A DNA stretch of 49,743 bases from Bacteroidota bacterium (GTDB taxonomy: Bacteria > Bacteroidota > Ignavibacteria > Kapaibacteriales > UBA961), in assembly GCA_020852855.1 (NCBI GenBank), contig JADZAA010000038.1, positions 1 to 49,743 on the forward strand, written 5' to 3'. Position 1 is the stretch's first letter, and every line of letters starts with the position of its first letter. The position numbers and the translations under genes are program-made. The notes beneath the pieces were generated by a model. The model saw nothing but the letters and a program-made list of their open reading frames with translations, did not search any database and was not told the DNA's origin. This document shows, one piece after another, positions 19,847 to 24,603 of the stretch.

Positions 19847-20773
19847 TTACGCGCCGTGAGGCCCCGTTTTCGGGAGAGCCTCACGGCGTTTTACGTAACG
19901 GTCTACCCATTGGCGAATTTCCTCGTTGCTTTCGTTGCGTCTGCCGGCTAAAACATGGTCGGCGTTGTCGTACATAACAAGTTTATACGGATGATTGCAT
20001 TGTTGCAAAGCCATGCCGAGTTTGTAACCATGCATAGGATCCACGCGGCGATCGCCCGTTCCGTGCAGAACAAGCAGCGGAGTAGTTTTGCAAATATCGG
20101 CCGCAAAATCGGTTGCGGAACGCGCACGTGCAGCCTCACGCAAATCTTGCCCTTCGGGAATAAACTTTGCAAATGTTTTGTAAATATAAGAGTTGGCAGG
20201 CCCTTGATGTAATGCCGCCGGCGCACCGATTGTAACAGCCGCACGGAAGCGGTTTGTTCGTGCAAGCATTTGCAATGCCATCATGCCGCCTCGACTTCCG
20301 CCTATTATTCCGATACGGTTTTTATCTGCATAGTTAAGCAAGTCGAGCAGCGGAATTAGATTAAGTGCGTCGTCAACATCGCGCCCGCCCCATTCCTCAA
20401 TGCCTTCACTGCCGCCTTGACCGCGATATTGACTTGCAACGCAAATATAGCCCCAACTTGCATATAATCCGGCGTAATTCATTGCTGATTCGGCAGTTAA
20501 TGCACCGCGAACACCCGTGCCGCCGCGATTGAAAATTAATGATGGCAATAATGCCTCTTCCGCAACGGAAGGCAATGCCATGAAACCCTTGATAAATTTC
20601 TCGCCGCTTAGATACGTTATAGCGTAAAGTTGAACAGCCGAGTAACGAGCGTAATCTTCCGCCGACATTGAACGTCGTGCAAGATTTAACTGCGACTCGG
20701 GCAGGGGAAGCCTTTCGCTCGCCACAAGGGAGCCGTCGGGATACATTTTATTTATAGAATTATTCAGCGGCAT
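19847..20773 (-). CDS. Alpha/beta hydrolase, S9 peptidase-like
   Basis: This 308-residue protein has an alpha/beta-hydrolase core of the prolyl-oligopeptidase type: a conserved Arg-Gly pocket (F-N-R-G-G-T-G), the nucleophile elbow G-G-S-R-G-G-M-M-A, the acid in L-H-G-T-G-D-R-R-V and His in N-A-D-H-V. The catalytic triad is complete. There is no signal peptide and no beta-propeller, so it is probably a cytoplasmic peptidase or esterase of unknown substrate. The frame is open to 20869, but ATG 20773 follows a strong GGAGAGG site on the minus strand and is chosen. A TAAATTTG box lies upstream at 20858-20865. The last seven codons overlap the gyrB terminator. Confidence 0.9.
   Translation of the reverse strand: MPLNNSINKMYPDGSLVASERLPLPESQLNLARRSMSAEDYARYSAVQLYAITYLSGEKFIKGFMALPSVAEEALLPSLIFNRGGTGVRGALTAESAMNYAGLYASWGYICVASQYRGQGGSEGIEEWGGRDVDDALNLIPLLDLLNYADKNRIGIIGGSRGGMMALQMLARTNRFRAAVTIGAPAALHQGPANSYIYKTFAKFIPEGQDLREAARARSATDFAADICKTTPLLVLHGTGDRRVDPMHGYKLGMALQQCNHPYKLVMYDNADHVLAGRRNESNEEIRQWVDRYVKRREALPKTGPHGA
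19852..19892 (+). terminator. Strong Rho-independent terminator after gyrB
   Basis: Perfect 11-base arms CGCCGTGAGGC (19852-19862) and GCCTCACGGCG (19878-19888) enclose an inner CCCG-TTTT-CGGG stem and are followed by TTTT on the plus strand. It lies 25 bases past the gyrB stop and inside the 3' end of the convergent hydrolase gene. Confidence 0.88.
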
Positions 20774-20857
20774 ATTACCTCTCCAAAAAACAAAACTGTT
20801 TGCGACTTTGCGTAGTGGGGGCTTTTCAGTACAACACTTGATACGAAGCATACAGTT

Positions 20858-20865
20858 CAAATTTA
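20858..20865 (-). promoter_or_regulatory. Putative -7 promoter box TAAATTTG for the hydrolase gene
   Basis: Read on the minus strand the sequence is TAAATTTG, an exact TAnnTTTG match. It ends 84 bases before the hydrolase ATG at 20773 and just after the methyltransferase stop, so the hydrolase need not depend on the restriction operon. Confidence 0.38.
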
Positions 20866-20889
20866 GCATTAGCGTTTAATCGAAGCCGT

Positions 20890-22053
20890 TCACCCGCCAT
20901 TGCGGCAAACTAGCTGTTGGGTGCTGTGCTTTTCTTCCGTCAGTAGTTTGTAGTCTGATTTTGCAACAAACAAATCGTTTTCTACTCCGTCTAATTTTTG
21001 TGTGATTGCTTTTATAGCTTCGTCCGATTGGTCAATGCCTATCCATTGTCTGCCGTTTGTCTGTGCAGATTTTAGTGTTGTCCCAGAACCTGCAAAACAG
21101 TCCAAAACAATGCTGTTTTCGTTGGACGAAGTTTTTACAATAATGTCCAACAAGTCTGGATTTTTTTCTGTCGGGTAAACAGGATATTGCGGGTCTTTGA
21201 ACTCCCAAATATCTTGCATACGTTTTCCTTCTTGTTCGTCAAAAAATATTTTCTTGCGTGGATTTCCGTTGTCGCTCCATTCAATTAAACCGTCATTGTC
21301 CCATTGTTCCAAAATACTTACATCACTTCGCCAATGTCTGCCTTGCGGTGGCAAAATCCCTTTAAATGCTTGCGAAGTTTTTCCGTTTTGTGTTTCGCCC
21401 GGTGCGTGCAACGGAATTGTTGTGTAACGTCTGCCGTTTTTGTCGGTTTTAGGAAACAACTTTGTTTTATCGTCTTCGGTGTATGGCGTTTTCGGTTCGT
21501 TCCAAATTAAGTTGCCTGACTTTGAATAAAACAAAATCAAATCTTTGATGTTTCCGTAACCTTTACGAGCAAAATTTTTCGGGTTACACTTTACTCGTGT
21601 AATGTCGTTTCGGAAATTTTCAATTCCAAAAATTTCGTCCATTACAACTTTTACATAATGCCCTATTTTGTAATCAATGTGCAGATAAATAGAACCTTTA
21701 TCGGACAACAACATTTTGAGCAACACCAAACGCTCACGAATAAATTCAATGAAGTCAAAACCTTTTAGTGTGTCTGTGTAGGCAACATCGCCATTTTTTG
21801 AATTACTGATTGTGCTTGCGCGTCCGTTCGTGATTGTAAAAGTATTGTTTGTTGCAAAAGGTGGGTCAATGTAAATAAGGTCAATTTTGCCTGCTAAATT
21901 ATGCTTTGTAATGAGTTGTTTTAATGCAATTAAATTGTTTGCGTGAATAAGTAAATTCGGATTTACACTATCGTTTATTTGCAACAATTCAACATCGGGA
22001 ATATTGTCAAATATATCCTGTTCCGATTTTTTATTTGGATAGTGTAACTGCAT
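20890..22053 (-). CDS. DNA methyltransferase (adenine-N6/cytosine-N4, beta class) of a type II R-M system
   Basis: This 387-residue protein has catalytic motif IV D-P-P-F (63-66, in L-I-Y-I-D-P-P-F) before the SAM-binding motif I F-A-G-S-G-T-T (320-326, in V-L-D-C-F-A-G-S-G-T-T). That order defines the beta class of amino-methyltransferases. W-I-G-I-D-Q-S closes the SAM site. It transfers a methyl group from SAM to a base within the recognition site and so protects host DNA from the cognate nuclease. That nuclease is probably the gene just upstream on this strand, five bases away. Its AT-rich sequence and abundant Lys and Asn codons contrast with neighbouring genes and suggest horizontal transfer. 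The recognition site cannot be read from the sequence. Confidence 0.95.
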   Translation of the reverse strand: MQLHYPNKKSEQDIFDNIPDVELLQINDSVNPNLLIHANNLIALKQLITKHNLAGKIDLIYIDPPFATNNTFTITNGRASTISNSKNGDVAYTDTLKGFDFIEFIRERLVLLKMLLSDKGSIYLHIDYKIGHYVKVVMDEIFGIENFRNDITRVKCNPKNFARKGYGNIKDLILFYSKSGNLIWNEPKTPYTEDDKTKLFPKTDKNGRRYTTIPLHAPGETQNGKTSQAFKGILPPQGRHWRSDVSILEQWDNDGLIEWSDNGNPRKKIFFDEQEGKRMQDIWEFKDPQYPVYPTEKNPDLLDIIVKTSSNENSIVLDCFAGSGTTLKSAQTNGRQWIGIDQSDEAIKAITQKLDGVENDLFVAKSDYKLLTEEKHSTQQLVCRNGG

Positions 22054-22058
22054 AGAAT

Positions 22059-22841
22059 TTAGATTTGATATAGAAATTCACGCAGAACTAAACTGCTCAT
22101 TATATTAAGGTCTTTGTAAGTTGTGGTGATGTCTTTGTACATCTTGTTGTTTCCTTTGATGTATAAAACTCCATCAAGAATGGCAACTTTTACGGCTTTT
22201 ACATTTTTCGCTTGAATAGTGCTAATAGCATCGTTGAATTGTGCGTTTTGATGTCCGCCAAAATCGGTCAAAAATTTCGCTTCGCCAATTACATATTTTC
22301 CATTAAAGCGACCAATAAAATCAAGTCCTTTGGTGTGTTTGTAATTGAGTTCGTCAGCGGCAAAATCCATTAACTGTTTGTCGCTTCCGTTCAGAATTGC
22401 ATCTTTTTTGTTTTTGGTAAATTCGTCCAACGAAACAGGTTGAATACCCAACGCTTTTGAATTTAACCAACGTCTAAAAAACGGTCCAATTTGTCGGTTG
22501 GTTTCTTTGGGTTCGCTACAACGCTCAAAAATTTTGTCCAAACCCATTTCGTAAAGTCGTCCGCAAATTCTGTTTATGGTTTTTGGATTTCGTTCAATAG
22601 CCGAAGCATCACGTTTCAAATAAGCAATGTAGCTGTCTTTTATTGGAAACAAGTCCAATTTCAAAAGTTCTTTGAGTAAAAGTTCGTTGTTTTTCTTTTT
22701 GAACGCTTTTTCAATATTCGTCCAACGGTCTTTGTCAATGTCTCTGATACCTTCGGGAATAGTCGGATATACTTGAAACAAGTCGTCCAAGTAACTTCTT
22801 TGGTTTGCATATTCTATACTTAGTTCTGTCCAGTAGTTCAT
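22059..22841 (-). CDS. Type II restriction endonuclease, PD-(D/E)XK-like
   Basis: This 260-residue protein is encoded directly before the methyltransferase, five bases apart, so the nuclease is translated first. Residues 170-190 contain K-G-L-D-F-I-G-R-F-N-G-K-Y-V-I-G-E-A-K: D174, then E187-A-K189 after a beta-turn. This matches the D-Xn-E-x-K metal site of PD-(D/E)XK nucleases. From memory the N-terminus (W-T-E-L-S-I-E-Y-A-N-Q-R) resembles the Tsp45I-type family; I could not check this. A 60-base stretch at 22141-22200 has 20 G/C, against 33 in the hydrolase (20341-20400), consistent with acquisition. Function follows from context plus the catalytic motif. Confidence 0.82.
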   Translation of the reverse strand: MNYWTELSIEYANQRSYLDDLFQVYPTIPEGIRDIDKDRWTNIEKAFKKKNNELLLKELLKLDLFPIKDSYIAYLKRDASAIERNPKTINRICGRLYEMGLDKIFERCSEPKETNRQIGPFFRRWLNSKALGIQPVSLDEFTKNKKDAILNGSDKQLMDFAADELNYKHTKGLDFIGRFNGKYVIGEAKFLTDFGGHQNAQFNDAISTIQAKNVKAVKVAILDGVLYIKGNNKMYKDITTTYKDLNIMSSLVLREFLYQI

Positions 22842-22846
22842 AGGTA

Positions 22847-22854
22847 CAAATTTA
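22847..22854 (-). promoter_or_regulatory. Putative -7 promoter box TAAATTTG for the R-M operon
   Basis: On the minus strand TAAATTTG ends only five bases before the endonuclease ATG. If used, the mRNA would be nearly leaderless, which could weaken translation of the nuclease. No -33 element is apparent. Confidence 0.35.
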
Positions 22855-22919
22855 CGAAAAATAATTTACGGATTGTGTTTTCGGTCGGGATTTGTGCGGT
22901 TGGTTTTAGCATAGCACAA

Positions 22920-23050
22920 AACGGCTGCGTGTATGAAACGTTTGGCATTTTGTAGTGGAAATCCTATCAAGTTACAACTACTTTTGATACGAGCTATGCC
23001 GCTTAATAAACCACTGATTGCCAAATGTTTTATACACGTTGTTAGCGGTT
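22920..23050. repeat. 131-base imperfect inverted repeat (attC-like or MITE-like hairpin)
   Basis: The left arm (22920-22958) and right arm (23011-23050) pair over about 40 bases. The core CGTGTAT-AAAC-TTTGGCA is shared with single mismatches, unpaired extra bases lie near the ends, and the apical region is about 52 bases. Size and bulged shape resemble integron attC sites. However, the outer core GTTAGCG does not fit the canonical GTTRRRY, and no integrase gene is present. The right end merges with the stop codon of the small membrane-protein gene. It could also be a MITE-like or REP-like palindrome. Confidence 0.6.
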
Positions 23051-23731
23051 CGTTGCTTTTTTCTCTTCTCCAGATTTAATATGTGCAAAGTCTTCATATT
23101 TTGTAAAATATTCCAGTCCTAAAACTAATAGTATTGAACTTATAGAATATACTTTCTGCATTATAAAGGCTAATTCTAAATAACTAAAGCCATATAGGAA
23201 AAAGAAACAGTAGTAAGTCAATAAACATATTATACAGAAAAATTTAAGTAAATGTAGTTTTGACTTTAGGATAAAGAAAGTAATTATAAATAGTCCAAAC
23301 AATGTTAACACAATTGAAATTGTTCCTAGGTCGTGGTAGGGTGTTGCAATTAAGAAAATTAAAAAAATGTTGGCAAATCCTATATATTTTAAAACATTTA
23401 CCCAAACTCTTAATGAAATCTTTTTCGACATATTCATAAAAAAAATACCATAACCAACCGATTGGAATGCCATTCCAAGAATTGCCCAAATTCTCCCAGG
23501 GTTTTCTGAACCATTTATCGCTTTTGCATCAAATAAATTGCTAATAAAATTTTTTGACCAGCCAAAGCCCACAGAATTTTTGTCCAGCAACGATCCACCT
23601 GGATAGGCTAATGCTGCTATTACTATTAATATCACCGAAATAGTCATACATATAAAAACCAAATACTTCTTAATCATTTTAGTCAAATTTGTTATAATGT
23701 TGTAGCATTGTCGTTTGCAATGACCGCTAAC
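23041..23731 (-). mobile_element. Candidate small gene cassette with inverted GTTAGCGGT ends
   Basis: GTTAGCGGT at 23041-23049 and its exact complement ACCGCTAAC at 23723-23731 bound a 691-base unit holding one AT-rich gene. Both ends coincide with stop codons, that of the inner gene (TAA) and that of the EamA gene (TAG). Nine-base identity is short, so chance or shared repeat ancestry is possible, but the hairpin abutting one end strengthens the case for a mobile cassette. Confidence 0.45.
23042..23686 (-). CDS. Small multi-pass membrane protein, DUF998-like
   Basis: This 214-residue protein has six or so hydrophobic segments (about 8-28, 67-86, 95-114, 120-140, 145-168, 172-190). The N-terminal loop G-F-G-W-S-K-N-F-I-S-N-L-F-D and the segment I-L-G-M-A-F-Q-S-V-G-Y-G resemble DUF998 integral membrane proteins; the match is from memory and weak. 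The composition is very AT-rich: 23221-23280 has 12 G/C of 60, against 34 in the neighbouring EamA gene at 24301-24360. The gene sits inside the inverted-end cassette described separately, and its stop codon lies within the hairpin edge. M4 is an alternative start. It was probably acquired horizontally; function unknown. Confidence 0.68.
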   Translation of the reverse strand: MTKMIKKYLVFICMTISVILIVIAALAYPGGSLLDKNSVGFGWSKNFISNLFDAKAINGSENPGRIWAILGMAFQSVGYGIFFMNMSKKISLRVWVNVLKYIGFANIFLIFLIATPYHDLGTISIVLTLFGLFIITFFILKSKLHLLKFFCIICLLTYYCFFFLYGFSYLELAFIMQKVYSISSILLVLGLEYFTKYEDFAHIKSGEEKKATNR

Positions 23732-24603
23732 TATTTTCTTTGTGTTATCAATACGCCCGACAGCGTTATCACGCCTCCCAAAATGAATGCCAATGACGGA
23801 CGCAAACCAAAAATCAATACGGTTAAAATTGTTGTGATAACAGGCTGTAAATTGTTGAAAACAGATACTTGAACCGAAGAACGTTTAGTTAAAAGATATT
23901 GCCAAAGCCCGAAGCCTACGCCGGACGTTATCAGCCCCAAGTACAATAAATCCGTCCATTGACGTAATGTAAGCGACGGCGGCGCGGCAAACTCGAAATC
24001 GAGTGGAAAAATCGCCATAAATAAAGCAAAAATAGCGAAACCGGTCAGCATGGAAAGTCCTGTTGTTCGTATCGCGCCGTATCGCAATGATAGCGAACGC
24101 CCCAATACCGTATAAAACGACCAAGATAAACTGGCGCAAAGCTCTATGATGTTTCCCGCGAGATATTCCGGCGAAGTGTCCAGACCATTCTCAAACAGCA
24201 CGATAGCCGTTCCTGCAATGGCTATGGATATTCCCGTGACGACTTGTGCGGATAATTTTTCCCGATAAAAAATTGAGCCGATAAGCGCGACGAACGCAGG
24301 GGAAAGCGCGTATGCAAGCGCGGCGTTTGCAGGCGTAGTATAGCGTAATCCCCACACGAAAAACATTTGGCTCAAAGGTATATTCATCAAGCCGAGCAAC
24401 AGATAACGCCATTTGTCGCTGTTCGTTACCGGCTGCGCCTCGTGCCGCCTGAACAATAACGGCAAACTGTATAACAAGGCAGCAAAAGCACCGCGATAGA
24501 ACACCACGTTGACAGGATGCATTATCATAGCCGCATCTTTTGCGAAAATATGAGAGCTTGAAGCGATAAGTTGTTGAACAACAAATAAAATGTAAATGAA
24601 CAT
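23731..24603 (-). CDS. EamA-family (DMT) transporter
   Basis: This 290-residue protein has ten predicted membrane segments arranged as two EamA repeats. Signature pieces are V-V-F-Y-R-G-A-F-A-A in TM2, A-L-A-Y-A-L-S-P-A-F-V-A-L-I-G with F-Y-R-E-K-L-S in the first repeat, and F-N-N-L-Q-P-V-I-T-T-I-L-T-V-L-I-F-G in the second. The family exports metabolites or amino acids across the inner membrane; the substrate is unknown. Base composition is normal for the window, unlike the gene downstream of it. Its TAG stop is shared with the right end of the inverted-end cassette, so an insertion landed exactly at, or supplied, the stop. Length is normal for the family. Confidence 0.93.
   Translation of the reverse strand: MFIYILFVVQQLIASSSHIFAKDAAMIMHPVNVVFYRGAFAALLYSLPLLFRRHEAQPVTNSDKWRYLLLGLMNIPLSQMFFVWGLRYTTPANAALAYALSPAFVALIGSIFYREKLSAQVVTGISIAIAGTAIVLFENGLDTSPEYLAGNIIELCASLSWSFYTVLGRSLSLRYGAIRTTGLSMLTGFAIFALFMAIFPLDFEFAAPPSLTLRQWTDLLYLGLITSGVGFGLWQYLLTKRSSVQVSVFNNLQPVITTILTVLIFGLRPSLAFILGGVITLSGVLITQRK

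Follow-up and report, generated by a model that had tools for sequence, protein, structure and literature searches.

The question raised by this locus is whether a short, A+T-rich gene lying between a nine-base box and the exact complement of that box, and next to a large hairpin, is a gene cassette of an integron or a member of a MITE-like repeat family, the two readings that an earlier note, made without database searches, had left side by side. The window, i.e., the whole stretch of DNA that was analysed, comprises 49,743 nucleotides of a Bacteroidota contig. We consider it very likely, with a probability of about 0.88, that two cassettes of a Bacteroidota-type integron form an array here that lacks its own integrase; the case rests on sequence alone, without recombination data.

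The features of the locus are all encoded on the minus strand, to which the coordinates given here refer unless otherwise indicated. The upstream flank is an intact gene for an EamA transporter (23731..24603; Pfam PF00892, E 3e-40), whose product aligns with its relatives to residue 289-290, the closest ones being just 35-50% identical, approximately. Its stop codon TAG occupies positions 23733-23731, and the G of this codon is the last target base before cassette 1 and the first base of the first box, an R'-type core with the sequence GTTAGCGGT (23723..23731); the crossover between G 23731 and T 23730 is inferred. Cassette 1 (22922..23730, 809 bp) consists of a leader, the gene ORF214 and the site attC1, and its limits were set from the R''/R' rule described below and from the DNA similarity with another genome, G439. 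ORF214 (23042..23686) encodes a hydrophobic protein of 214 residues with several TM-like segments, and its stop codon TAA overlaps the second box, the R'' box ACCGCTAAC (23041..23049), which is the exact complement of the cassette start over 9 nt. The window contains just two exact copies of the sequence GTTAGCGGT, at 23041-23049 on the plus strand and at 23723-23731 on the minus strand, that is, at both ends of this cassette; near-matches with one mismatch are no commoner in the window than expected by chance, so the count proves nothing by itself and it is the position of the boxes that does. The site attC1 (22920..23043) has 124 nt from AAC to GTT, an outer stem of about 17 bp and two fixed A.C mismatches, which read as T.G on the other strand. 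Folding of the strand opposite to the gene gave -23.8 kcal/mol (z -3.4, with 2 of 200 shuffled sequences as good) versus -17.2 kcal/mol for the gene strand (z -1.15, 26 of 200). With the covariance models R1 and R2 introduced below attC1 scored 144.7 and 128.8 bits, respectively; at gathering scores no Rfam family matched within the window, and a blastn search of plasmids with the hairpin as query gave no match.

Cassette 2 (20796..22921, approx. 2.1 kb) carries a restriction-modification pair formed by a Tsp45I-type endonuclease (22059..22841; PF06300, E 1e-125) and an N4/N6 DNA methyltransferase (20890..22053; PF01555, E 5e-41), and the stop codon of the latter lies inside a second site, attC2 (20794..20918), of 125 nt from AAC to GTT. 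This site was matched by R2 at 20785-20927 with 32.4 bits (E 9e-5), and its R'' box GCACAGCACCCAAC (20916..20929) pairs with the start of cassette 2, GTTTTGTGCTATGC, except for three mismatches. Since a second attC (20918-20794) ends the restriction-modification genes, the insert between the EamA gene and the downstream flank is made up of two cassettes, an unknown membrane protein in one and the restriction-modification pair in the other, each ending in an attC-like site of about 124 nt. The downstream flank is a gene for an S9-type alpha/beta hydrolase (19847..20773; PF00326, E 8e-28), and from the position of attC2 its start is likely the ATG at 20773 and not the one at 20869. From sequence alone, it can be inferred that the two cassettes were inserted head to tail at a GTT between the intact EamA gene and the hydrolase gene, and that rejoining both flanks gives AAAATAG/TTTTGTTTTTTGGAGAGG, i.e., an ordinary G/TT target (the slash marks the crossover). 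As the window contains two sites but lacks a recombinase, the CALIN criterion (at least two attC, no integrase nearby) is met; the integrases are on other contigs. It is possible that cassette 2 is now immobile, given the weak score of attC2 and the three bases, apart from the usual A.C position, at which its R'' box departs from the cassette start.

Most of what the earlier note had claimed for this region held. The two boxes, the hairpin and the overlaps of both boxes with stop codons were confirmed at 23041-23049, 23723-23731 and 22920-23043, and so was the very low G+C content of the inner gene (about 29-31%, versus 46-50% in neighbouring genes). The size of the hairpin, given as 131 bases, was corrected to 124 nt (from AAC at 23043 to GTT at 22920), and the single cassette that it had described was only part of the insert, since a further member of the hairpin family, at 20918-20794, had been overlooked.

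The hairpin is not restricted to this contig. A blastn search with it detected short, dispersed, hairpin-forming, non-coding relatives in 32 of 391 genomes sampled from the class, and the full-length ones share a common plan: AAC, stem, middle, stem and GTT; in some of them (e.g., L014) the middle is kept while the stem has been exchanged. Using covariance models (R1, and R2 retrained from it), with at most eight candidates scored per genome, the family was found in 151 of the 391 genomes, often as arrays, so the hairpin, whose arms the earlier note had proposed to search for in relatives as a check, is not confined to the window. Another check that it had proposed, for other genes flanked by the same boxes, was likewise positive (L018, L063 and L071), and the longest arrays contain 9-12 sites (L063, L117 and L105). 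Sites were present in all 12 named or own Bacteroidota genomes searched (5-66 sites in each; nine in total in the genome of the window) versus none of 12 genomes from outside the phylum. Since the training sites of R1 and R2 were themselves retrieved with the window hairpin, the counts lean towards its subfamily and the E-values are rough; the tests of neighbouring boxes, recombinase linkage and attI described below are independent of the modelled stem pairs.

The folded stem of these sites is conserved in structure and not in sequence, as revealed by two-sided changes in 14 of the 17 outer-stem pairs among 20 aligned sites, and the arms differ completely among copies. While the surrounding pairs change, the A.C positions are kept, in 54 of 57 sites for the inner and in 40 of 57 for the outer; on the opposite strand they read T.G, and the helix of that strand is therefore more continuous. 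According to the computed energies the bottom strand folds better in 40/57 sites (Wilcoxon p ~2e-5), which is the only, and indirect, support for recombination through the bottom strand, a step that remains inferred. The length of the site is almost constant (121-126 nt). Its core begins with GTTR in 107 of 112 sites, and only 3 of the 112 match GTTRRRY, in agreement with the misfit noticed beforehand in the window; this poor fit could possibly account for the few reports of integrons in Bacteroidetes. Some sites show additional peculiarities. One genome (G190; L060:8998-12407 and L097:4379-5832) has five sites in total after which an identical start, GTTCAGCAAGATTCGCTTCGCTCATCTTG, recurs; this start is a hairpin in itself, the R'' boxes of the five sites do not match it, and the pattern remains unexplained. 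In the region L016:1501-1575 (G233:C2), a truncated site continues into a sequence like the attI of L052 (CATTTATCGAGAGT..CGTAAATAAATGAGTT).

Within an integron cassette, the first bases and the R'' box of the attC that it carries are complementary, given that both derive from one circle. In arrays, this was evaluated by comparing the R' box of the upstream site with the complement of the R'' box of the next site over 9 positions. Adjacent pairs agreed at 5.6 of 9 positions in a first set of loci (n=30) and at 6.4 of 9 in a second set (n=53), versus 2.9 of 9 for non-adjacent pairs in either set, and 0 of 10,000 permutations were as good in each case. In many adjacent pairs the agreement extends over 9-10 nt including the GTT, and is followed by A versus G, that is, again the A.C/T.G position; low-scoring pairs often span large gaps, possibly with a missed site. 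The complementarity is thus a property of neighbours and not of single copies: the opening box of a cassette is complementary to the one that precedes the following hairpin, which is the integron cassette rule.

Regarding the recombinase, a search of 19 genomes with the model TIGR02249 revealed canonical IntI proteins above the cut-off in four of them, all Bacteroidia, and further IntI-like recombinases whose match skips model positions 180-237, approximately. The genes that adjoin the sites encode these IntI-like recombinases without the insertion and not canonical IntI; by the boundary test no cassettes were found beside the canonical genes (L091, L092, L093 and L094), which in this respect are like the array-less elements of the literature. 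The linkage was evaluated in 80 loci of named genomes selected by recombinase similarity alone. These loci contained 78 sites, distributed in 24 of them (including loci of Flavobacterium, Algibacter, Arundinibacter, Algoriphagus, Zunongwangia and Lutibacter); 77 sites were on the strand of the recombinase gene, and 76 of those were downstream of it. The exceptions are a site in the opposite orientation in L115 and the 56 loci without a site, some of which are on short contigs. Of 20 co-directional loci, 15 carried the complement (9-10 nt) of the first R'' box after the recombinase gene. It forms an attI-like junction, known as yet only as sequence, and lies 35-267 bp past the stop codon in the aligned loci; it is preceded by an A+T-rich stretch that often ends in ATATAAACGAG/TT. 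L099, L101 and L052 showed a second architecture, resembling that of classical integrons: the recombinase gene is divergent, and this complement is located 26-84 bp upstream of it. In addition, the plasmid of Chryseobacterium sp. SNU WT5 (L217:11764-21894) bears a complete-looking integron of the Bacteroidota type, with an integrase and at least five sites, broken up by an IS110 element and a group II intron.

The genome of the window has no IntI above the TIGR02249 cut-off; it encodes two full-length recombinases on contigs C50 and C11, with the conserved residues R-K-HxxR-H-Y and with sites just downstream of both genes, and on C50 the attI-like complement is located 68 bp past the gene. The statement of the earlier note that no integrase is visible thus held for the window and failed for the genome. 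In 27 of 27 array-linked recombinases the spacing between the KDR strand and HxLRH is 58-63 residues, versus 99-100 in IntI; these proteins lack the insertion of about 40 residues that defines IntI, and score below the cut-off of TIGR02249. Their best NCBIfam model is NF040815 (site-specific tyrosine recombinase/integron integrase) and their best solved relative is IntI4 (2a3v). In the phylogenetic tree, canonical IntI (100/100) and Xer (100/100) are each apart from the array-linked proteins, while the order of the latter with respect to some non-array relatives was not resolved.

The cassette genes show signs of mobility. The ORF214 protein has no match in Pfam or NCBIfam; relatives were found in 9 other genomes out of 148 in the phylum, the one from G439, which belongs to the same phylum and not to the class of the window genome, being 91% identical. 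The DNA similarity with G439 (88.6%) is confined to 23735-23040, from 4 bp before the cassette GTT to the AAC, and both the flank and the hairpin differ. A further relative, in G497, is located between two sites of an array. Concerning the restriction-modification pair, none of 14 loci with Tsp45I relatives had an R2 site within 1.5 kb, and it is therefore not tied to cassettes. One such pair, 79% identical to that of the window, is followed by GCGGCTAAC and, some 60 bp further on, by GTTAGCGG (L232:3360-3600); these boxes surround a short GAAGGG/CCCTTC hairpin (AAC...GTT), and the similarity to the window stops at the R'' box. This hairpin could perhaps be a shortened attC.

Many of these features are shared with canonical integrons (class 1, Vibrio), CALIN and single-attC elements: cassette arrays in which a folded AAC...GTT site ends each cassette, an R'' box complementary to the start of its own cassette, a tyrosine recombinase gene adjoined by an attI, strand-coherent arrays, a more stable bottom strand, and scattered sites without a neighbouring integrase. 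In contrast, the core of the Bacteroidota type is approximately GTT-R-K-S-N-G-Y instead of GTTRRRY, its integrase is devoid of the insertion of about 40 residues, the attI is mostly 3' of the integrase gene with a co-directional array, and the attC has a near-fixed length in which the apparent strand mark is the fixed A.C positions and not bulged bases. XerC/XerD and the archaeal XerA have the same catalytic residues and length as the array-linked recombinases; nevertheless, the Xer proteins of the same genomes are separate from them at 100/100 support. Previously, Bacteroidetes were known only for integrases without arrays, to which one integron of Salinibacter was later added (IntegronFinder 2.0, PMC9024848). 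The same work regards the extra domain as the distinguishing mark of IntI (PMC9024848), and in the integron literature recombination of folded attC is held to depend on it. Taxon-specific attC models exist for 11 taxa, and Bacteroidota is not among them (PMC8352920). No description of an insertion-less Bacteroidota integron system was found in the open-licence literature searched, a scope that leaves out preprints and most subscription journals. Integrons, and the wording "integron integrase" of the NCBIfam model, were already known; what is new is an integron variant and not a new kind of system.

Recombinase-associated interbacterial defence (rAID) arrays are found in Bacteroidales, and we take these clusters to be a known relative of the array-linked system. 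In a plasmid of Parabacteroides distasonis (L219:9716-16400), consistent with this, a recombinase relative is followed by co-directional immunity-type genes (Tdi1, SMI1/KNR4). The short hairpins between these genes obey the neighbour-complement rule (31 of 42 box positions); they differ from the sites described here in having just about 46 nt, a core (A/G)TTA and no R2 match.

Members of the family are also found in a clinically important antibiotic-resistance cassette. R2 matched the attC of blaVEB cassettes on plasmids of Klebsiella, Vibrio, Wohlfahrtiimonas, E. coli and Aeromonas with 72.6-74.8 bits (E 1.6e-15 to 5.1e-15; L223-L227 at 2104-2246, in L224 at 2404-2546), and on those plasmids it matched none of the classical cassettes neighbouring blaVEB. 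In the plasmid from K. michiganensis, a truncated array-type recombinase is followed by an attI-like junction ...TTAGGGAG/TTAGCGGTAATTT and directly by blaVEB-3; in other plasmids the same cassette start is preceded by other integron sequence. The loci behind these blaVEB observations are L223-L227 and L220:8109-9730. The simplest reading, inferred only from these sequences, is that blaVEB was once a first-position cassette of a Bacteroidota integron. The attC of blaVEB-1 is reported to be 50 times less efficient with IntI1 than that of aadB (PMC10127599), which fits a foreign site.

From these results the following mechanism can be proposed, in which catalysis by the recombinase, the circular intermediates and the off-target entry in the window genome are all inferred. 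A tyrosine recombinase encoded elsewhere, for which the proteins of C50 and C11 are the candidates, would join a single-stranded folded attC to a double-stranded G/TT target. The free cassette would be a circle that brings its leading box (TTAGCGGT, following the G) together with the complementary R'' box, and the bottom strand of this circle, once folded, would yield an attC whose R'' and R' boxes pair perfectly. As a rule the circle would enter at the attI beside the integrase gene; in the window it would have entered, in the sense direction, at a secondary G/TT at the EamA stop codon. Such an insertion would thus leave EamA undamaged, and read-through from it into the cassette genes is possible. 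Cassette 1 would bring the unknown membrane protein and cassette 2 the restriction-modification pair, a type of gene that could stabilise the array.

A different possibility is that these cassettes move by means of a canonical IntI, whether one residing in some Bacteroidia or one acting in trans, and that the insertion-less recombinases are mere bystanders. Four of the 19 genomes searched, all Bacteroidia, do encode IntI above the TIGR02249 cut-off, and the presence of the blaVEB cassette with its family attC in class 1 integrons indicates that IntI1 can use such a site. However, the canonical loci hold no cassettes by the boundary test, it is the insertion-less recombinases that adjoin attI-like junctions and arrays, and no IntI above the cut-off is present in the genome of the window, so that this explanation seems very unlikely.

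The other two rivals deny that the hairpin is a recombination site, and they can be practically discarded. A MITE-like or REP-like family framing genes by chance would account for copies that are short, dispersed, hairpin-forming and non-coding, but not for stems that covary and differ completely among copies, for a box complementarity that belongs to neighbours, or for arrays that are strand-coherent with one recombinase. A MITE was considered in its own right and rejected, as the boundaries obey the cassette rule and not that of terminal inverted repeats with a target duplication; neither a target-site duplication at the window junctions nor conserved terminal repeats with a matching transposase were seen. 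Likewise, a transcription terminator or a 3' stabiliser common to expression units would agree with a hairpin located 3' of genes and overlapping their stop codons; nevertheless, it is the opposite strand, and not that of the transcript, which folds more stably, no Rfam match exists in the window, and this reading offers no reason for the R''/R' complementarity to the cassette before, so that hardly any room remains for it. Accordingly, of the two readings in the earlier note, the integron-like one is supported and the MITE-like one failed.

The reading that we prefer, a two-cassette array of a Bacteroidota-type integron, can be extended to a bolder one, towards which we lean with reservations: that Bacteroidota harbour a pervasive branch of integrons, whose recombinases have always lacked the insertion or can dispense with it, whose strand mark is the A.C/T.G position, which standard searches have overlooked because both the core and the integrase fail them, and which was the source of blaVEB for class 1 integrons. 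The existence of insertion-less recombinases beside attI-like junctions and long arrays makes the need for the IntI domain directly testable; moreover, a large unread pool of cassette genes is opened up, and the clinically important blaVEB extended-spectrum beta-lactamase cassette would acquire a traceable source.
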